From assembly GCA_000230955.3 (NCBI GenBank), contig CP007061.1, positions 124,001 through 188,000 of the forward strand: a stretch of 64,000 nt of DNA, written 5' to 3'. The notes below the pieces were generated by a model. That model did not search any database. It was not told the origin of the DNA and saw only the letters and a list, made by a program, of their open reading frames with translations. This document shows, one piece after another, positions 22,171 to 62,484 of the stretch. Position numbers and translations under genes: made by a program. How positions within the stretch are numbered: the first letter of the stretch is position 1; every line of letters starts with the position of its first letter. This stretch comes from Halobacterium sp. DL1 (GTDB lineage Archaea > Halobacteriota > Halobacteria > Halobacteriales > Halobacteriaceae).

Positions 22171-22507
22171 ATGAAGTTCGTCGTCGACGCGAACATCCAC
22201 CCTTTCCGGACTCATCTTCGACTCGATGACGCGCTGCCTCCTCGTCGAACCAGAGAACGACCTCCTGACCCCGGCGTATGTCCACGGCAAACTCGAAAAG
22301 TGTCAGGAGATGGTCTCCGAGAAGTCCAGTCTCACACTAACGGAGGTCGAGGATCTCATCAAGATTCCCTTCAAGCGGACCGACGTGGTCCCTCGGACAG
22401 GGTTCCTCAACTCGCTTCAAGAGGCCATACGGATCATGTGGGACACCGATCCCGATGACGCGCTCTATGTCCCGGTCGCACCGTCACTCGGAACGGCTTC
22501 CAAGTAA
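22171..22507 (+). pseudogene. Frameshifted PIN-domain gene
   Basis: ATG at 22171 gives the typical PIN start MKFVVDANI, then the frame is lost within a few codons. A second frame from about 22204 carries the rest (SGLIFDSMTRCLLVEPENDL, LTPAYVHGKLEKCQEMVSEK, VPRTGFLNSLQEAIRIMWDT, DPDDALYVPVAPSLGTASK). It lacks the final acidic strand (normally ...WSDD...). One frameshift and a truncated end make it inactive. Divergent from the VapBC operon. Confidence 0.75.
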
Positions 22508-22530
22508 CCGCCCTCACACGGATCGTGTCC

Positions 22531-22640
22531 TTGACTCGTCTTCGTTCTCCCTCGCAGTACCGGCTTGCTCGTTCTGGGGCTGCGAGTTCGTCGGTGAACC
22601 GCTCGATCTCTACTTCGAGGGTGTTGATCCGCCCAGCACG
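22531..22640 (-). pseudogene. Duplicated fragment of the primase-like gene tail
   Basis: On the minus strand, RINTLEVEIERFTDELAAPE and the following bases match the 3' end of the gene at 24004-25275 (ERIDTLEAEVERLTDELAAR). The nucleotide run around TCTCCCTCGCAGTACC is nearly identical in both places. It has frame damage and no start. A leftover of an earlier duplication or of recombination between related elements. Confidence 0.65.
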
Positions 22641-24003: not shown

Positions 24004-25275
24004 TCATCCAAAACCCCCGTCAAACAGCCGCATTGTACGGCTCCACACAGATGATGTCTCAGACTCGTCTTCATTCTCCCTCGCAGTACCAGTTTGCTCG
24101 TTCTGGGGCTGCTCAGTTTCTCGGTCACGGGCTGCCAGTTCGTCGGTGAGCCGCTCGACCTCTGCTTCCAGGGTATCGATCCGCTCAGTCTTCTGTTCGA
24201 GTGTTGCCTCGAGTTCGTCGACCCGCTTGGTCAACAGTCGGTTTTTCTCCGCCAAATATGCACGACTCCGGTCTGCGTCGTCAGGGGTACCGCCAGCTGT
24301 GACCCCGTCCGGTGGGCCGTGGGGATCTGCGGCGTCGTCGCCGGCATCCGGGTCGTAGAACTCCGAAGTGGTCGCAATCGCTCTCTCGATGGTCTTTTCG
24401 CCGTACGTCGACCCGTCAGCGTAGTGGACCTCGTCCCATTTCTCCCGAAATAATCCTGACTGGCGGAACAGCTGCTCCATCTGCGTCCGGTCGCCACCGG
24501 TCCAGAACGCCAGCAGACAACACAGCGCCATGTCGGCCTCGGACTGACTGTCGTAGCCGACCGTATTCCCGTTCCAGAGCCGCTCGAACTTCTCGCCGTT
24601 CGATGCGTTTCGCGCTTTCTCGAGGAGGTTTTCGTCTTCGAGGTCGACGTCAACGTCGGCTGCACCGGTTGTCGGTGACTGGTCGTCAGCGCCACCACGC
24701 TGCTCGGACTTGGATACTGTGTCACGCTCGGTGTCCTGGACGTACTCGCGGTGAATCGCTGTGAGTGCGTCCTGCCGACGTGCAACGCGCGTTGGCGTTC
24801 GCTCGACGTGGTCGCCAGTGACGGTGAAAAAGCGTGCCGTGTCGTACAGTTCGACGCTCCCGCGGCGATTCCGCCCCTCCGGGAGTTCGCCCCTGATGAG
24901 CACGTGGTAGCCGGTTCCAGTGGGCGACACCTCCGTATAGGAGTCGAGTCGTTCGATGATGTCCAGCGCCGCGTCGTCGACGTCGCCGGTTTCAGGATCA
25001 CGGCAGTCGTCCAGGTCGACGCCGACGATGGGATCGTCGTCGGTAAACACGAATCCGACGCCATCGGCGTGTGCCGTCTCGGTGTACTCGAGTGCTGCCT
25101 CGAAACTCGCCCAGGTCTCCGACTCTGTTGATGATGCGAACCCCCCAGCCCCCGGTGTCACCGGAATCTTCGTCGGCTTGCCGTCCCGCTCCTCTTCGCG
25201 CCAGCACACCCACTGGTCGCGTTCGCGTAACGTCTCCGGAATCGTCTCCGGTTCGTCGACAATCGGTTCACTCAT
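24004..25275 (-). CDS. Primase-polymerase-like replication protein (NrS-1 polymerase type)
   Basis: 423 residues from ATG 25275 (MSEPIVDEPETIPETLRERD). N-terminal half: QWVCWREEERDGKPTKIPVT, DGVGFVFTDDDPIVGVDLDD (paired Asp of an archaeo-eukaryotic primase catalytic site) and YHVLIRGELPEGRNRRGSVE (basic/His strand). Second domain, about residues 225-310: SEADMALCCLLAFWTGGDRT then QMEQLFRQSGLFREKWDEVH, typical of NrS-1/P4-type primase C-terminal helical domains. A coiled-coil tail follows (LLTKRVDELEATLEQKTERI). No helicase is fused. It lies directly beside repeat array A, so it is the best candidate replication protein of the element. Confidence 0.75.
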   Translation of the reverse strand: MSEPIVDEPETIPETLRERDQWVCWREEERDGKPTKIPVTPGAGGFASSTESETWASFEAALEYTETAHADGVGFVFTDDDPIVGVDLDDCRDPETGDVDDAALDIIERLDSYTEVSPTGTGYHVLIRGELPEGRNRRGSVELYDTARFFTVTGDHVERTPTRVARRQDALTAIHREYVQDTERDTVSKSEQRGGADDQSPTTGAADVDVDLEDENLLEKARNASNGEKFERLWNGNTVGYDSQSEADMALCCLLAFWTGGDRTQMEQLFRQSGLFREKWDEVHYADGSTYGEKTIERAIATTSEFYDPDAGDDAADPHGPPDGVTAGGTPDDADRSRAYLAEKNRLLTKRVDELEATLEQKTERIDTLEAEVERLTDELAARDRETEQPQNEQTGTARENEDESETSSVWSRTMRLFDGGFG

Positions 25276-25345
25276 CCTCACACAGCACCTCGCATGGCTC
25301 TCACTGGCTCTGAGCCAGCACAGACTTCACGCTGCTCTACGTCTC

Positions 25346-25396
25346 GATCCAATCCCTTGGTCCCAACGGGGACCCCCCGTTCTATCCTAGTTGGTT
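25346..25396. repeat. 51-bp conserved box, copy A (origin-like)
   Basis: Begins GATCCAATCCCTTGG and ends CTATCCTAGTTGGTT. The centre holds the dyad GGTCCC-AACG-GGGACC followed by CCCCC. It aligns without gaps to 61840-61890 with eight or fewer differences. A dyad next to a C/G run resembles archaeal origin recognition boxes, but I cannot confirm a match to a published consensus. The array of GGGTGGAACA starts 3 nt after it. Confidence 0.7.
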
Positions 25397-25399
25397 GTT

Positions 25400-25576
25400 G
25401 GGTGGAACACCCGCTATAACTGGTTAAAAATCGCCAGACGTGAGAGTGTTCCACCCATTTCGGCCGTCTCGTTGGTGTTCCACCCATTGAGGATTTGGGT
25501 GGAACATGCCGTCGTCGGGTGATTTTCGACTTGCGAGTCTGGTGGGTTGAAGTCATGATTCTGATTGGGTGGAACA
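25400..25576. repeat. Iteron-like array A (GGGTGGAACA, 5 copies)
   Basis: GGGTGGAACA at 25400-25409, 25497-25506 and 25567-25576; its complement TGTTCCACCC at 25447-25456 and 25476-25485. All are preceded by T or AT on the repeat strand. The array fills the gap between the primase-like gene and the 3' end of the conjugation operon, with an AT stretch (ACTGGTTAAAAATCG) between copies 1 and 2. Confidence 0.85.
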
Positions 25577-25626
25577 GGCCCTGAGAAGTCGCGATGATAT
25601 CGTGAATTGGACCGTGTCTGTCCATT

Positions 25627-28600
25627 TCATGACTCAGGTCCCTCTTCAGAGCGAATGCGGATACCAGTGTAATGCCGTACGGGTTCTCCGTCGATTCGCT
25701 TCTTCGTGGAGTCCACCTCGATGTGAGTGTTGAGCTTCCGTGTGAACCAGCTCTTATTCAGCGGCTCGTCGATGCCATGTGCCTCTGCCCAGTCGTTGTA
25801 GAGGCCGAATACCTCATCTTTCGGCACGGCTTCATCTGCGTCTTCGATAAGATATTCGTCGACGAACGATTCGAACGACGGTGGCGATTGGTCTTCCTGC
25901 TTCTCTTCGACCGGCCCATCTGCCTGGTCGGTCTGACTGGGTGGTTCGTCAGCGGCCGCTGATCCGGACGATGCCGGATGGAGCGACCCGTCGGTGATTG
26001 CAGAGAGTGGCCGCTTCTCACCGTCTTCATACACTACTGATTCCGCCTCATCGTGAAGGATAACGATGCTGTACGTCGAACGTGTGTAGTCTGGTACGGG
26101 GAGTTCGGCTTCGGGGACGAATGGCTTCTTGATACGCACCCAGTCATCCTCGAACGCCGATTTCGACTCGTAGATGTGTTGCTCACCGTGCTCGTATACG
26201 ACGTACTCGTCGGCAGCGTGGTCGTAGCTGTAGATGGCTGGCACGCGATCCTTCGAGAGGGTCGAAAGCGACGGGACACGGTTGTGTTCCGTTCCGCTGG
26301 CATCACGAAGGACGATTTCGTCGTCATCACGCTGCCAGATGTTCTGGATCCTGTTCTCGTCGCCGTTCGCCGGTCGCACGGCCGTCACTCCCCCTTCTTC
26401 GGTCGCTCCGCCGTTGAACGTGAGATTCGAGTCGGTCGTGTAGAACCTCGTCTCGCCATTCTGGAGGGTGCGAACGGGTGGCGTGAGAATGCCGTCGACA
26501 CGGTCGGCCCACTCAGTTTCGTCGTTTCCTGGTCGAACGACAAACAGCGGGATATCCTCTGCCTCTTGGGCTTTCCGGAGGTTCGTGAGTACTTTCGCGG
26601 GATTCTCGGGTGTCGTCGTTTCGACTTCGATAGCGAATCGGTCGGCAACGTCGGGGTGGCTCGCCGTCGCGTCAGGTTTCTCGCTGCCATCCTGTGCGAG
26701 GATCGAGACCGTGAAGCCGAGTGCGGTGAGCTCTTCTTCGATCTGGCGGAGTGCTGTGTCGTGGGCACTCCCCCCAGCTGCCTGCACGCCACCAGTATCG
26801 GGCATCGCGACCTCCTCTCCGGCTTCAGTGAGCCGGATTCGGAGTTCGTCAGCGTCGATATCGACGGTCGTATCGAGGTATCGTGATCGTTCTCGAATGT
26901 CCGCGAGTGCATCATACGACGGGGGTTCGGCGTCGACGTCGTCGAAGAGTCGTCTGAGTTCGTCGTCGACTGCTTCGACGGCCACCCAGCCGTTCTCTTC
27001 ACGGCATCCTTCTCGAAGCTGGAGACTCCGGACCACCTTCGCAATCGCACCGTCCAGGTCATCGCTCGCAATATCGAGGACATCGTGTCCGTCGGCAGGT
27101 GGTCTCGTTGTTGTGGTGTCTGTCTCAGCCGGCACACCGTGTCTGTCACTGATGTGTTCGTGCATCGCGGAGAGCGTCTCAGTGAACTGCTCCTCTTCAC
27201 GCGCTGTGAGAGGCGATTCACTCTCGGGGTGGCCCGGTGGAATCGGGAGTGGTTCGAGACTGAACGGATACGGCCCCGTTTCACCGAACGTCGGGCTCGG
27301 CAGGCTGGCGATCCACTCTCCTCGCGGCAACGAACGAATCCGGTTGGCGAAATCCGTGGGGTCCATCTCTTCGTGGGCCATCGCTCGTGCCAGTTCTCGG
27401 TCGACGTTGATTTTCCCGATGAGCGAACTGCCGATGTTGTTCAGGGCGTTCAGGTAGATTTTTCGCCCGCCTTCGGCCTCCATCTGTTCGGGGAACTGCA
27501 TCGACAGGCCGACAGAGAGCCGGAATCCCCGCCCTTTCTCGAGGAGATCGTTCATAATGTCGGAGACCACGACCGATGCTGCCTCGTCAACGAGCAAGTT
27601 CACGACGTAGTCATCCGGGTGTTGGGAGAGCGCCCGTTTGCGATCCTTGAGGGCTGCATCGAGATTGGTCAGGATCACACCGGTCATGATCCGGGCGGCG
27701 TCGTCGCGAAGGTCTCCAAGGTCGAAGAGAATGACCGTATCTTCGTCGAGGACATCCCGAAAGTCGAACTGGTTCTCGGTATTATTGAAGATCTGACGCA
27801 GGTGCGTATCCTGCGAGATGTAGGCGAGACGGTTTCCGACACCGCCCATCACGTTCGCGAAGGTGTTCGAATCTAACTGAAGTTGCCGTCGGATCGTTCG
27901 AGTGACTTCCTCGTCGCTCGACCGCGGGGCGTCGCCGATGTTCTCGTTCGGTGGCCCGGCCTCCCAGAGCTGGTCGACTACGTGTTCGAGCTGTCGGTGG
28001 GCGAAGTAGTCCGTCGACGCTCGGTACAGCCCGTTCTCACGCCCGTACTCCTCGTCGAACAGTGCCTTGATGAGTGTCTTGATGAGAGTTGGGGCCACAG
28101 TCGCTCGCTCGTAGCGGTCGGTTCCCATCACGAGCTTCAAAATCTCTTCGTAGTGGTCGGCCTTCCGTTGGACGGCGTCTTCGCGGCGCCGTCCGCTCTC
28201 CATCGACGGTTCGAGATCGAAAAACGAGAACCCGGGGAGGACGTCTGGCACCGGGAAGTGAACGACGTTCTCTTCGAGATCGGTTATTCCGAACCGACGC
28301 CCGTGAGCCCGCATGTAGTTCTGGGCCATGTCGTCGTTCTTCGGGATAATGAGGATAGTTGGCCCCTCGGTGTTGTCGTATAGCGACAGCATATCGTTGA
28401 TCAGGGCTTTCGATTTCCCAGAGCCGGTTGTTCCGAACCGGCCGTAATGAGTGGGCAGCAGTCGGGGCGGAATATGTGTTGGCTCGCCTTCGGCCTCGCC
28501 GGTATCATTGAGTGCGTACCCGATTGCCATCCCGTCACGGAACTCATTCATCAGATCTTGGTGGGGGCGTGGCAACGGATTCCGACTCTGCTGTTCCGCA

Positions 28601-29949
28601 CGCGTCCCACGTGCTCCCTCGACAGTAAGCTGTTCCGAGGAGGGAACGAGTACGAAGTGCGCGAGTTCTCGACCACTTAGCACGAACCCGGGTCGGGTCT
28701 TCCCACGGCCGGTCGTGATCTCACGATCCAAGAGCCGCTGCAACGTCGCTCGTGTGTTCCGTTCTTTCGTGGCTGCCCGAAAGCCGCTGTCGCGCAACCG
28801 TTCAGCCGTAACCTCGTAATACGGCCCGTCAAGCGGATCGAATACCGGGACAAGTGATTGCATCCGCTCATCGAGATCATCGCGACCGTCGTCACCGGAT
28901 GGAATCCCGATTGCTCGGATGTTCGCGGTGAACGACCGCTTCGGATTTTTCGCCTCGATTGCCTCGACGCGTTTTGCAACCGCGTCGCTAAGCTGGTTTT
29001 TGTCCCGGTTCTCCGATTGGCCGTCGAGTTCGAAGAGGGAGCCAATAATCTCCTGGGCGAGTGTGTCCCGCCCGTCGATGATGTCCTCCTTGCGAAGATC
29101 GGCATCGGACTGCCAGCTCTTGCGTCGCTGGAAGACGACCTGGAACGCCACTGGTGCTGTCGCCTCCATCAGGTGGTCGACGAGCGACGCGAGCGCACCT
29201 CCTGGCTGATCGACGGCTGAAAGTTCCTCTTCGTCGTCGTCGGCAGTGAATGGCGAGAGTGAGGTCATCCAGTCCTGCTTTCGAGTGGCCGACCCCTGCC
29301 ACCGCACGCCGAGTGGGGAGACGGTCTCGGTCGCTGGCCGGGCGAGTATCGTCCCATCTGATGTTACCGTTGGTTCGGCAAGCGTGGTTAGTGGCTCATC
29401 CTCGGGAATCGCATCTGGTGGGGCGAGTTCGAGGGCGGTGTCTCCGAACTCGATGATGTGGTCGGCAGACAGGTCGCCGACCGTCCCTCCATCCGCGACT
29501 GATTCGGCGTCTGCTGGCCTCGCTTGACTGTCGTCGTCAGTCCCGAGTTTGTATTGCTCGTCAGGACCGAATTCGTACGTGAGATCGCCCGACTCATAGT
29601 GATCGACGAATGTCTCTCGGTCGAATTCCACAGGCTGCACGAGTCGGGATACGACGTCGATTTCGGTACGCTCGATGTCGAACGTCTCGGGATAGACCGA
29701 CCGGAGACGTTTCTCAAGCGTATCCAGATGATCGTCGGCACCGTAGTAGAATTCGACGGGGGCGTCTGCACCCTCGCTGAGCGCGAGAAATTCGAATCGT
29801 AGCGGTGTTTTGCTGTGTAGCGGATTGAGTTTGTCAGCTAGCCCTGTCGAGTCCATTGCGGTCAGTTTGTGGAGACTCTCCAGTGTCTGCGGCAGCCGCT
29901 CCGGATTGAGGCGTTCGGAGGTAGGCGTCACGCGGAGGTACTCACGCAT
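25627..29949 (-). CDS. Large conjugation ATPase / coupling protein (TraD/VirD4-like role)
   Basis: 1440 residues from ATG 29949 (MREYLRVTPTSERLNPERLP), which overlaps the VirB4 stop by 8 nt. Walker A is GRFGTTGSGKSKAL at about residue 510, with an FDLGDL strand and Walker B VNLLVDEAAS near residue 785, followed by KGRGFRLSVGLSMQFPEQM, the RecA-fold order of HerA/VirD4/VirB4 ATPases. About 500 N-terminal residues are acidic. The C-terminal third has VSILAQDGSEKPDATASH ... ADRFAIEVETTTPENPAKV (nuclease-fold-like strands) and, at the end, a small helical domain (YLIEDADEAVPKDEVFGLYN) like primase/DUF5906 winged domains. It probably feeds DNA to the secretion channel. The window shows no relaxase. 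Confidence 0.75.
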   Translation of the reverse strand: MREYLRVTPTSERLNPERLPQTLESLHKLTAMDSTGLADKLNPLHSKTPLRFEFLALSEGADAPVEFYYGADDHLDTLEKRLRSVYPETFDIERTEIDVVSRLVQPVEFDRETFVDHYESGDLTYEFGPDEQYKLGTDDDSQARPADAESVADGGTVGDLSADHIIEFGDTALELAPPDAIPEDEPLTTLAEPTVTSDGTILARPATETVSPLGVRWQGSATRKQDWMTSLSPFTADDDEEELSAVDQPGGALASLVDHLMEATAPVAFQVVFQRRKSWQSDADLRKEDIIDGRDTLAQEIIGSLFELDGQSENRDKNQLSDAVAKRVEAIEAKNPKRSFTANIRAIGIPSGDDGRDDLDERMQSLVPVFDPLDGPYYEVTAERLRDSGFRAATKERNTRATLQRLLDREITTGRGKTRPGFVLSGRELAHFVLVPSSEQLTVEGARGTRAEQQSRNPLPRPHQDLMNEFRDGMAIGYALNDTGEAEGEPTHIPPRLLPTHYGRFGTTGSGKSKALINDMLSLYDNTEGPTILIIPKNDDMAQNYMRAHGRRFGITDLEENVVHFPVPDVLPGFSFFDLEPSMESGRRREDAVQRKADHYEEILKLVMGTDRYERATVAPTLIKTLIKALFDEEYGRENGLYRASTDYFAHRQLEHVVDQLWEAGPPNENIGDAPRSSDEEVTRTIRRQLQLDSNTFANVMGGVGNRLAYISQDTHLRQIFNNTENQFDFRDVLDEDTVILFDLGDLRDDAARIMTGVILTNLDAALKDRKRALSQHPDDYVVNLLVDEAASVVVSDIMNDLLEKGRGFRLSVGLSMQFPEQMEAEGGRKIYLNALNNIGSSLIGKINVDRELARAMAHEEMDPTDFANRIRSLPRGEWIASLPSPTFGETGPYPFSLEPLPIPPGHPESESPLTAREEEQFTETLSAMHEHISDRHGVPAETDTTTTRPPADGHDVLDIASDDLDGAIAKVVRSLQLREGCREENGWVAVEAVDDELRRLFDDVDAEPPSYDALADIRERSRYLDTTVDIDADELRIRLTEAGEEVAMPDTGGVQAAGGSAHDTALRQIEEELTALGFTVSILAQDGSEKPDATASHPDVADRFAIEVETTTPENPAKVLTNLRKAQEAEDIPLFVVRPGNDETEWADRVDGILTPPVRTLQNGETRFYTTDSNLTFNGGATEEGGVTAVRPANGDENRIQNIWQRDDDEIVLRDASGTEHNRVPSLSTLSKDRVPAIYSYDHAADEYVVYEHGEQHIYESKSAFEDDWVRIKKPFVPEAELPVPDYTRSTYSIVILHDEAESVVYEDGEKRPLSAITDGSLHPASSGSAAADEPPSQTDQADGPVEEKQEDQSPPSFESFVDEYLIEDADEAVPKDEVFGLYNDWAEAHGIDEPLNKSWFTRKLNTHIEVDSTKKRIDGEPVRHYTGIRIRSEEGPES

Positions 29950-32149
29950 CGTCGCCACCTCCTGCTGGACCACCATCAGTCTCTGTTGGCGTCCGCTCAG
30001 GTGGGAGTTGTCCGTTGTCTGTCGCTCGGCTTTCAATGTCCTCCTGGAACGCCTGTACGTCCGCGTCCATCGGATTCTCGCCAGTGCCGGGGAGTGAGGC
30101 TCGCCGTTGCTCGGTTGGCTCGAAGTCGATGACCTGTTTCTCCTTGGGCATCGCTTTGACCTTGATCCCGCGCCACTCGCCGTCGACGCCGACGAGTGCT
30201 TCGGAGAAGCCTGCATCCTCGTTGCCGGGGACGGCATCCTGGACGAACCGCATCTGCGCGTAGTTCAGTCCGAACTCGTCGGCCCACGCCTTGTCCATCC
30301 CGTCCAACCGATGGAACTGCTTGACGGCACACTGATCGAGGATCGCTTCGGATTCGGCGTGCTCGAAGAACTCGTCGACGGTCTGGGTGACCAGCCGAAT
30401 CGAGAGATCGTGGTGTCGGTGATGGCGGAACACCGTCTCGAGGAACGCCAGACTTGCCGCGTCCTGCATGATGTAGCGGGCCTCGTCGATGTAGAACACG
30501 ACCTCCTTGTCTGAAACCTTCGCTCGCTCGTAGACCAGCGAGATGAGTAGCTGCATCGTCAGTGCCGTGCTGCTGTCCACGCTGCCTTCCTGCTGGGCCA
30601 GATCGAGATAGATCACCTTCTCGTCCCGGATGTCGAAATCGGATTCTTGACCGAGATTGGCGTGGCGACCGTCGTCCTCGAAGGGACGAAGCTGATCGAG
30701 CAACCACGTCGCGTCGTCCTTGATTTTCCCTGCCTCCTCGTCGGACCGCACGACGAACTCCTCGGGGTCGTTGATCATGTCCTCGAAGACGTCCATCATG
30801 TCGCGGATGGTCGGGCTCGGGTTGCTGTGCGTGGAGATGTCGTCGGTAATCCCCTGGCGCTTGTAGGCGCGCTTGAGGGCGAGTTCGAGCGTCGTCCGCC
30901 GGTCGCCGAGCGAGATGCCGCGGAGCGCGAAGAAGTTCGTCAGGAAGCTCATCGCGTCGTCGAGCTTCTCGTTGAACGGACTCGCGTCCTCACCCATCGC
31001 CCGCTGGACGTGCTCGGGCGTCTCGCGAATTTCCAGAGGGTTCAGGCCGAGTGTCCCGCCGACCGTGATTCGCTTGGCGTCGAGCGCCTCTGAGACACCG
31101 GCCCAGTTGTTCAGCGGTTCGAGGATGATTCCGATGCGGTCCTTGCTCTGCTCGATGGAGCGGATAAAGTTCTGCTTGGAGCTGAACGACTTCCCCGAGC
31201 CCGTGTCGCCGACGGTGAACATCGCGTACCCGTTGTCTCGGGAGAAGGGATCGATGACGACGGGGCTCTGGTTGTCTTTGTGAATGCCGAACTCGACGCC
31301 GCCCTCCTCGAGGATCGTCGCGTTGTGTGGGGAGGACAGTAACGCGCCGACGGCGCCACCGAGCGCGATCGATGTCCGGCCGAACTCGTTGTCGCCGATG
31401 GGCGCGGCGGATTGGAGGGCGAGGTCCTGCCGGCAAATCGCGGTCTTCGGCGTGAGGTTCGCCGGGTCGTCCCGGAGCGCACTCTTGACCGTCTGGACGG
31501 CATCTCTGAGGTGGTCTTTCTCGTCGGTCCGCACGGTGATGAACATCCCCTGGTCGAAGACGTTCGCGCCGTTCTCGACGGCCTTGTACGTCGCTGCAGC
31601 CTCGTTGGCTCGCTCTTGGAGATAGGCACTCCGGATACTCTGTTCGAGGTCAGCATCGACCTGAAGGTCGTCGGCGATGTCCTGCAGTTCGTTCCGAGCT
31701 CGCTCCTGGTTCTTCGGCGTGATGTGGGCGGTGAGGTCGAACTGGACGTCGGTCATCTCGAAGAGGTCGCTCAGATACCCGTCGTTGGGATAGTCGGCAT
31801 AGTTAGCGATGTACAGCGTCGTCGTCCACTGCTCGCCGACCCGTGCGGCTCGCGTTTCCCATTCGACAGCTCCGGGCGCGGTGACGGACTTGTGCGACTC
31901 GGAAATATCGTCGAGGAGCTGGCGTTCGGCCTCGCCTTCTTTGAGTGTCTCCTCGTCGAGGACGTCCGCGAAGTCCATGTCTGGTTCATCATCCGCAGTG
32001 AAGCGGTCCCAGAGATGTTTGCTGCCGACACCGAGGATGAGTCCCACCACGAGAGCAAGCACTGCTCCCTCCGCTGGTGACAGGTTCTGGAGCCACTCGG
32101 CGACGGGGCCAAGTGCGCCACCACCTGTCTGGAGGACCACGTTACGCAT
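29942..32149 (-). CDS. virB4: VirB4-like conjugation ATPase
   Basis: 735 residues. One N-terminal membrane segment (about 25-42, EGAVLALVVGLILGVG). Walker A is VGDTGSGKSFSSKQ (314-321) and Walker B VVFYIDEARYI (550-557), followed by RLVTQTVDEFFEHAESEAIL (sensor region) and QFHRLDGMDKAWADEFGL. The C-terminal 60 residues are disordered and Gly-rich. VirB4 powers assembly of type IV secretion pili and channels. Overlaps its neighbours at both ends, so it is tightly coupled in the operon. Confidence 0.88.
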   Translation of the reverse strand: MRNVVLQTGGGALGPVAEWLQNLSPAEGAVLALVVGLILGVGSKHLWDRFTADDEPDMDFADVLDEETLKEGEAERQLLDDISESHKSVTAPGAVEWETRAARVGEQWTTTLYIANYADYPNDGYLSDLFEMTDVQFDLTAHITPKNQERARNELQDIADDLQVDADLEQSIRSAYLQERANEAAATYKAVENGANVFDQGMFITVRTDEKDHLRDAVQTVKSALRDDPANLTPKTAICRQDLALQSAAPIGDNEFGRTSIALGGAVGALLSSPHNATILEEGGVEFGIHKDNQSPVVIDPFSRDNGYAMFTVGDTGSGKSFSSKQNFIRSIEQSKDRIGIILEPLNNWAGVSEALDAKRITVGGTLGLNPLEIRETPEHVQRAMGEDASPFNEKLDDAMSFLTNFFALRGISLGDRRTTLELALKRAYKRQGITDDISTHSNPSPTIRDMMDVFEDMINDPEEFVVRSDEEAGKIKDDATWLLDQLRPFEDDGRHANLGQESDFDIRDEKVIYLDLAQQEGSVDSSTALTMQLLISLVYERAKVSDKEVVFYIDEARYIMQDAASLAFLETVFRHHRHHDLSIRLVTQTVDEFFEHAESEAILDQCAVKQFHRLDGMDKAWADEFGLNYAQMRFVQDAVPGNEDAGFSEALVGVDGEWRGIKVKAMPKEKQVIDFEPTEQRRASLPGTGENPMDADVQAFQEDIESRATDNGQLPPERTPTETDGGPAGGGDDA

Positions 32150-61766: not shown

Positions 61767-61839
61767 TTATCTTCCCCCTCCACCGTTTCCGGAGCTTCGG
61801 CCGCCGTTGACGACAAACTCCTATCTGCAGGTAGCCGCC

Positions 61840-61890
61840 GATCCAATGCCTTGGTTCCAACGAGGAACCCCCCATCTATACTAGTTGGTT
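61840..61890. repeat. 51-bp conserved box, copy C (origin-like)
   Basis: Begins GATCCAATGCCTTGG and ends CTATACTAGTTGGTT, with central dyad GGTTCC-AACGA-GGAACC followed by CCCC. It aligns ungapped with 25346-25396. The dyad is kept in both although its bases differ. Array C starts 3 nt after it. Confidence 0.7.
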
Positions 61891-61892
61891 TT

Positions 61893-62065
61893 TGCCGTAA
61901 CAGAAATGCCAAGTCTGCGTAATCGGGATCGAGGACGGCTAATACGGGCGCACGGCAACGTCCCCTACTGCGTTTTCGTTACGGCAATCTCAGTGATTGC
62001 CGTAACAGAATTCTCTCTGTCGATTTCGAGGTTTCTGAGCCGTTGTCGCTGTCGATGCCGTAACA
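61893..62065. repeat. Iteron-like array C (TGCCGTAACA, 4 copies)
   Basis: TGCCGTAACA at 61893-61902, 61998-62007 and 62056-62065; an inverted, nearly exact copy (CGTTACGGCA) at 61977-61986. The last five bases, (G/T)AACA, match those of array A. AT-rich DNA lies between copies. Confidence 0.8.
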
Positions 62066-62484
62066 CGATTCCTCCTTCCGCTACACAGGCTGAAACTGCT
62101 GTACACGGCAGAATAGCTGGAGGCCATGCTGGACCATTTCTCATTCGCGCTCTCGTGGCAATCACAGCTGACGTCGTCACTAAGGGCTAATTCCTACTGG
62201 AACGAGGCGACCAGCGCTATCAGATCGTTGGCACCGCCCACGGAACCTCCAGAAGCTACACTGCTCTATAAAGAGACTCCACACTCAATCATAGTCAGAA
62301 TAGCTCCGTTTACTAGCGGAGGGAATTCTAATTGTGAAACCAGGATTTAGGGCCTTATTCGGACAACATCGACGAAATTAGTGGTAAACCGCAACTAGGA
62401 AAACTGACGGTGAGCTAAGTGAATCGATTATACGAGAGGGAGTGTCTCAATATCTTGGCACAAGGTGCTGCAAAGCCGAGGAAA
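62066..62484. other. Gene-free gap right of array C
   Basis: No ORF with haloarchaeal codon character. The right part is AT-rich (around 62330-62440) and would suit an unwinding region or promoter. No further repeat copies were seen. Confidence 0.4.

Follow-up and report, generated by a model that had tools for sequence, protein, structure and literature searches.

What is a compact array of short repeats for when it lies between the end of a conjugation operon and a primase-polymerase gene? The array is carried by C2, the 315,592-bp contig of a two-contig haloarchaeal genome of 3.16 Mb (Halobacterium sp. DL1), and was analysed within a window of 64,000 nucleotides (C2 bases 124,001–188,000; positions without a prefix are those of the window). 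The preliminary description, made from the letters of the window, took it for the replication origin or partition site of the element. Our reading, to which we give a probability of about 0.6, is that sequence comparisons point to a clt- or oriT-like cis-acting site at which the coupling ATPase P3 would bind, for DNA processing and transfer of a conjugative plasmid module. Replication origin or partition site beside a primase-polymerase is not the best fit.

The spacer, its repeats and its constant core

The flanks of the array are as first described, with the primase-polymerase gene (P2) on one side and, on the other, the gene that ends a VirB4/VirD4-type operon (P3). The features of this region are as follows.

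24004–25281, minus strand: P2, NrS-1-type primase-polymerase, 425 aa (PF22763, 8.4e-32; 6k9a, 5e-36)
25627–30237, minus strand: P3, VirD4/HerA-class coupling ATPase, 1536 aa, last gene of the transfer operon
25282–25626, no strand assigned: non-coding spacer, 345 bp, P3 stop to P2 start, containing the repeats, the core and the P2 leader
25359–25396, minus strand: constant core AACCAACTAGGATAGAACGGGGGGTCCCCGTTGGGACC, stem CCAAC (25390–25394) with GTTGG (25363–25367), bulge TAGGATAGA
25399–25409, plus strand: repeat 1, TGGGTGGAACA, core-proximal
25447–25457, minus strand: repeat 2, exact TGGGTGGAACA copy
25476–25486, minus strand: repeat 3, exact TGGGTGGAACA copy
25496–25506, plus strand: repeat 4, exact TGGGTGGAACA copy
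25566–25576, plus strand: repeat 5, exact TGGGTGGAACA copy
25427–25457, plus strand: composite unit of constant box AAAATCGCCAGACG and variable repeat, inverted arm I1, the box being family-wide
25496–25526, minus strand: second composite unit, in opposite orientation to the first

The elements of the spacer named in the preliminary description were confirmed as well, at these positions: five exact copies of GGGTGGAACA at 25400, 25447(−), 25476(−), 25497 and 25567, in both orientations over a span of 177 bp, and, 3 nt before the first of them, a box (25346–25396) with the dyad GGTCCC-AACG-GGGACC at 25359–25374 followed by a C-run. With one base added, the 11-mer TGGGTGGAACA has five exact copies within 178 bp, and these are the only ones in the whole genome (3.16 Mb), where a reversed control pattern occurs twice. 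The signal is the clustering, because the 10-mer by itself is not rare in the window (6 occurrences with one mismatch allowed, versus 3.8 expected). Two 31-nt inverted arms, 25427–25457 and 25496–25526, include one repeat each.

Other candidates for the function of the spacer were tried and rejected. A 115-aa open reading frame across it (25278–25625, P0001) gave no Pfam match, and neither the length nor the sequence of the spacer is kept in relatives whose P2 is 85–91% identical. Rfam gave no match to a known structured RNA in the window, although the core leader could still be transcribed, and a tRNA-linked site was dismissed for a window without tRNA. P4 (23357–23899), considered as a general reader of the repeats, has homologues at only 5 of 112 loci. 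The leader that runs from the core to the primase start (25282–25358, minus strand) is very alike in elements with differing repeats and contains the palindrome CTGGCTCAGAGCCAG; this 5′ leader may be structured. Downstream of P2, the coiled-coil tail of this protein (residues 367–417) is matched again over short stretches at 22502–22631 (minus strand).

Across 392 genomes of the order that were searched, relatives of P2 were detected in 236 and of the P3 tail in 170. We examined 112 P2 loci, 110 from genomes and two from plasmid records, and found the order P3–spacer–P2 at 102 of them, the other ten having no P3 match or being cut by contig ends. Among 246 genomes of the phylum outside the order, the C-terminal region of P3 was not found except in G541, where the winged-helix part is matched within a 673-aa frame (G541:C17:6999–7256, E 3.4e-11). 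In PLSDB, 23 plasmid records match part of the spacer, four of them over at least 80% of its length and most of the remainder over only 115–119 nt beside P2, or less; all 23 are typed as non-mobilizable.

With all 112 loci kept, the best repeated 9-mer varies (TTCCACCCA, TTACGGCAA, GGTCAGGGG, TTCAGGGCA, TTCAGGGTA, TGTCCACGC, TTACCCCGG, TGTCCAACC, TTACGACAG and others). Set in register, the repeats are mostly 12-mers that follow the pattern TGTNNNNNNNAA. Their layout is conserved. Classes TTCCACC and TTACGG have them ordered forward, forward, reverse (with a second reverse where detected) and forward, ending 12–13 nt before the core, and most other classes have mainly direct repeats that end at −24.

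The repeat sequence differs between plasmids while the core, AACC[A/G]ACTAGTATAG with a covarying stem, is unchanged across relatives. It is recognisable at all 102 P3-linked loci (at least 11 of the 16 letters of AACCAACTAGTATAGA). A CCAAC arm is present in 54 distinct core sequences, 42 of which have its complement GTTGG downstream; 13 distinct cores have another arm, and of these six carry their own exact complement and none GTTGG (CCGAC is matched by GTCGG in 5/5). A pairing of 4–5 bases was present in 55 of 67 distinct cores, 12 being unpaired, compared to 19% after shuffling of the downstream part. The core also includes a conserved unpaired stretch, TAGTATAG. A constant box near AAATCGCANGACGG, located at a fixed distance before a repeat, was found at least once at 78 of 102 loci, with a mean of 0.92 per locus versus 0.033 in shuffles.

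Covariation of the repeats with the winged helix of P3

The domains assigned to P3, and its partner ATPase in the operon, have these positions.

27193–28740, minus strand: P-loop ATPase region of P3, residues 500–1015
26536–26769, minus strand: PD-(D/E)xK-like nuclease core of P3, about residues 1157–1234, from predicted fold and conserved residues
25648–25875, minus strand: RFX-like winged helix of P3, residues about 1455–1530, proposed repeat reader (PF03288; 1dp7 match)
29942–32149, minus strand: P5, VirB4-type ATPase of the same operon (NCBIfam VirB4-like families, best 1.6e-36)

Among 21 members of the P3 family, TrwB_AAD_bind (PF10412) was matched by 10, TraG-D_C (PF12696) by 11 and T4SS-DNA_transf (PF02534) by five at E 0.01 or better, and DUF87 by 13. 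On these profile matches we class the family with the VirD4-class coupling proteins, which have a TrwB/TraG/VirD4-type P-loop domain; P3 of the window itself falls below threshold for the coupling-protein models and displays only its C-terminal Pox_D5 domain. On the same replicon, outside the window, there is a second VirB4/VirD4-type gene pair (C2:265917–271935, L015). Its VirB4 is 84.6% identical, its VirD4-like protein matches P3 over residues 4–1039 only and has a different C-terminus, and the VirD4-like gene runs directly into the next gene with no spacer.

A PDB sequence search with P3 alone gave no match, and searches with P3 alignments gave weak matches only. The last 537 residues were modelled with a mean pLDDT of 83.5. 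The C-terminal domain of this model is predicted to have the fold of the RFX DNA-binding domain (RFX1, 1dp7: Z 12.2, rmsd 1.6, 75 residues aligned; Foldseek E 8.4e-4), and PF02257 was matched by 4 of 53 P3 members. RFX proteins bind GTTRCC-like half-sites, which GTTACG resembles. The model further contains another winged-helix-like domain and a domain of alpha-beta-beta-beta-alpha-beta topology that resembles PD-(D/E)xK nucleases, among them Hjc, the Holliday-junction resolvase of archaea (1gef, Z 8.3 with this 537-residue model). When this domain was folded alone Hjc was the top match, with Z 9.1, in a low-confidence model (mean pLDDT 62.5) that we use as support only. D1189, E1204 and E1206 are invariant in both alignments, and E1167 and K1215 in the 51-row alignment. 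Fold similarity (Z 8–9) together with these conserved residues suggests that P3 may contain a nuclease; as the position of the usual nuclease lysine is occupied by E, we treat cleavage by P3 as hypothetical.

For the comparison of distances 80 of the 102 loci were kept, corresponding to 58 non-redundant loci (of the 22 dropped, 16 had weak repeat calls and six were removed by length or motif filters). Over the 58, repeat distance correlated with that of the winged helix (Mantel r 0.70, p 0.0005), and at lower values with those of the P3 body (0.51) and P2 (0.27). The correlation with the winged helix held once the P3 body was taken into account (partial Mantel 0.58, p 0.0005). Given the winged helix, neither the P3 body (−0.17) nor P2 (−0.17) added anything; the repeats do not follow the primase.

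Natural swaps were seen among the window, a Haloglomus plasmid (L018, NZ_CP101167, with GTTACGGCA-class repeats) and L028. Their P2 proteins are 86–91% and their P3 bodies 81–86% identical, with winged helices of 31–41% identity and different repeats. Between P3 of the window and that of L018, identity drops from 80–98% to 15–48% beyond about residue 1373–1390. In the three comparisons made, the repeat half of the spacer has an identity of only 45–48%; at the core the DNA becomes similar again, and the last 130 nt before P2 are 85–91% identical. Judging from these alignments, winged helix and repeats are swapped together between near-identical elements, but the codons of the winged helix are about 70–300 nt from the nearest repeat, so the joint exchange could partly reflect physical linkage.

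Particular residues of the recognition helix in the P3 winged helix were associated with particular bases of the repeat, in counts that are not independent trials because the loci form 21 clusters with shared ancestry: where the fourth residue after the invariant W is K, bases 3–5 are T[TC]C in 55 of 55 loci; where it is R they are TTA in 17 of 20; where it is S or N they are GTC in 5 of 5; and with V before WF, base 10 is T in 10 of 10. The exceptions to the R rule (L104, L105 and L111) represent two R-bearing winged-helix families with other bases, L104 and L105/L111, and two loci (L085, L091) have S before WF yet T at base 10 in the core-proximal copy. That such matches recur across diverged P3 bodies argues against linkage as the explanation, but they come from only 21 ancestry-sharing clusters. 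Mutual information calculated broadly between winged-helix columns and repeat positions singled out no contact residues; it was distributed across the domain, as shared ancestry would lead one to expect.

Replication, the primase and sites without it

Haloarchaeal Orc1/Cdc6–ORB origins combine dyads and G/C runs beside a replication gene. The locus resembles them in its dyad and G/C run next to a replication gene, but unlike them it has no ORB-like element or orc1 nearby (25.3–25.6 kb). Orc1/Cdc6 (PF09079) was searched in 16 genomes, and each of the 20 locus-bearing replicons they contain carries at least one such gene. C2 has orc1 genes at 1.2, 118.7 and 202.1 kb, and fragments near 88 kb. 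Ten ORB-like 21-mers (at most 4 mismatches) were found in its first 300,000 bases; eight of these are at C2:200501–202725 around orc1 (L012), the others at 185.8 and 250.4 kb, and none near the locus (C2 149.4 kb), the closest being about 36 kb away. The array around orc1 (C2:200.5–202.7 kb) is the probable vegetative replication origin of the replicon, about 51 kb from the locus. In an 81-kb Halomarina plasmid orc1 is at 77.4 kb and the locus at 28.5–29.0 kb.

Twenty further P3 loci for which no P2 was listed were fetched. P2 was in fact present in two (L159, L160), two were cut by contig ends (L161, L162), and five (L166, L175–L178) have retained the repeats and the core, while the 6–6.5 kb fetched showed no P2. 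One has a truncated P3, the gene being broken within the winged-helix region on a 3.66-Mb contig with no spacer after it (L163, G290:C1). In the other ten (L164, L165, L167–L174) P3 abuts the next gene without a spacer, so P3-like motors there can do without it. In this clade, whose tail is 40–42% identical to P3 and in which spacer, repeats and core are missing, the abutting gene is of about 685 aa and has a P2-like tail.

The site also occurs as an orphan, one example being in the window itself.

61839–62066, minus strand: orphan second site (region B), core 61875–61888, four GTTACGGCA-class repeats, no P2 or P3 nearby

What had been described as a 51-bp box is the stretch common to the locus and 61839–61894 (56 bp, 85.7% identical). 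An ORB-like 21-mer at C2:185777 (window 61777) adjoins this orphan site. The core pattern AACCRACTAGTATAGA had 42 matches in the 392 genomes and its reversed control none. Comparison of the lists by eye placed 33 of the 42 exact matches at listed P2 or P3 matches. The remaining nine were region B and eight that we fetched: three lie beside P2 or P3 fragments (L204, L205, L210), five are orphans with repeats (L206–L209 and region B), and one has no repeats and may be a chance match (L203). In genome G207 the orphan L207 has the same repeat type as the resident P3 element L121, and a second orphan, L208, is of the TTACGG type; in G346 the repeat of orphan L206 resembles those of the resident elements L212 and L213. 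In the window the two differ in type, the orphan being TTACGG and the resident P3 TTCCACC. A site used in trans would be expected to occur as orphans, although decay of old elements could be another source.

These data bear on the claim of a replication origin. The conserved, cis-acting and origin-like character of the locus, and its usual place beside an NrS-1-type primase-polymerase, were rightly recognised; its designation as replication origin or partition site is not upheld. If the locus were the origin of P2, the repeats would be iterons bound by a plasmid protein and the core hairpin a start site for the primase, in vegetative or post-transfer replication. Several points speak for this: P2 is a true NrS-1-type primase by its sequence match to such primases and its helix-bundle domain, it adjoins the site at 102 of 112 loci as fits a replication role, the core is hairpin-like, and the primase-polymerase plasmid pRN1 uses a stem-loop origin, according to the relevant part of PMC4234260. 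However, repeats at an iteron origin are sites of the plasmid's own replication initiator, and here they follow the winged helix of P3 and not P2. Moreover, the site persists in the five loci without detected P2 and as orphans, and Orc1/Cdc6 on 20 of 20 replicons and the ORB-like array on C2 locate replication elsewhere. Loci with identical repeats are found together in 5 of 16 multi-locus genomes (some of them draft assemblies), which iteron incompatibility would disfavour. We regard an origin for P2 as unlikely, with a modest chance of being right.

Two other explanations appear weaker to us. The repeats stand directly upstream of P2, where a promoter is expected, and could be an operator through which the P3 winged helix or another regulator controls the primase promoter or the operon; but about five copies in 180 bp, a fixed geometry, a covarying core, and primase-less and orphan sites exceed what an operator needs, and it would be unusual for a translocation motor to end in a regulator domain, so that we judge this improbable. 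A partition (centromere) site or a site-specific resolution site of the element would fit the iterated sites and the mosaic recombination seen around the core. It is very improbable: in two annotated relatives ParA is encoded at the start of the record, about 27 kb or more from the locus, and no ParA is annotated beside the locus in either.

A candidate transfer site and its counterparts

For the transfer reading, we infer the following course from the patterns above. The C-terminal RFX-like winged helix of P3 would bind the plasmid-specific repeats and thereby load or direct the motor onto its own plasmid. Repeat-bound winged helices would arrange the motor at the constant core, which, with its covarying stem and unpaired TAGTATAG, would be the processing point. 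Next the core hairpin would open and be cut, the P3 nuclease domain being a possible agent of the cut, and the DNA would then be pumped via the VirB4/VirD4 machinery, with P2 priming or copying the transferred strand in the donor or the recipient.

Archaeal conjugative plasmids have no identified relaxase, according to the pertinent passages of a 2025 review and of a study from 2023, and the open-licence papers searched contained no description of a haloarchaeal transfer origin that we could find. A broader and frankly speculative proposal is that haloarchaeal conjugative elements start transfer without a relaxase. P3 alone would be reader, through its RFX-like winged helix, and nuclease; it would recognise the plasmid-specific array, cut the constant hairpin core and pump the DNA, winged helix and repeats forming a swapped specificity cassette and orphan cores being mobilised in trans.

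The transfer origin of archaeal conjugation has long been missing, and the locus is a candidate for it. It offers a concrete, testable answer to how archaeal conjugative plasmids mark and start transfer, comprising a defined DNA site, a candidate reader with a residue-to-base pattern and a candidate nuclease. The natural swap variants predict which motor pairs with which plasmid, and the signature of core plus repeats could spot conjugative, and possibly mobilisable, replicons among those now typed as non-mobilizable.

In Streptomyces the DNA-translocating ATPase TraB recognises 8-bp repeats at clt, as set out in the sections of PMC4170104 and PMC12857230 on this system. Both systems would combine a translocating ATPase with short repeats at a cis-acting transfer locus, and TraB/clt, as those sections present it, invokes no relaxase; covariation and joint swapping in the sequences suggest that P3, too, may itself recognise its repeats. 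TraB/clt is defined by an FtsK/SpoIIIE-homologue motor with no other known T4SS parts, whereas P3 is of the VirD4/HerA class, has a VirB4-type ATPase partner in its operon and would read through an RFX-like winged helix. At about 11–12 bp the repeats here are longer than those given for clt; further differences are the separate constant core, a hairpin, and the nuclease-like domain within P3.

The winged-helix protein TcpK binds nine-nucleotide tandem repeats (the TcpK box) in the oriT of pCW3 and is needed for efficient transfer, as stated in the portion of PMC6137059 that deals with it. The P3 locus likewise pairs a winged helix with short repeats, a pairing known here from sequence covariation, but TcpK is described there as a separate protein, unlike the winged helix of P3, which forms part of the coupling ATPase and varies in step with the repeats. 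The relevant part of a 2026 paper on archaeal rolling-circle initiators (PMC13107129) deals with another kind of hairpin origin, whose reader is a separate Rep protein. The archaeal plasmid pRN1 also associates a hairpin element with a primase-polymerase gene; its stem-loop, as given in the same part of PMC4234260, measures about 100 nt and is located downstream of its replication gene, whereas the site here follows P3 and can exist without a primase. By analogy, TraB/clt and TcpK would be the nearest working counterparts of the locus, and the pRN1 origin the nearest comparison on the primase-polymerase side.
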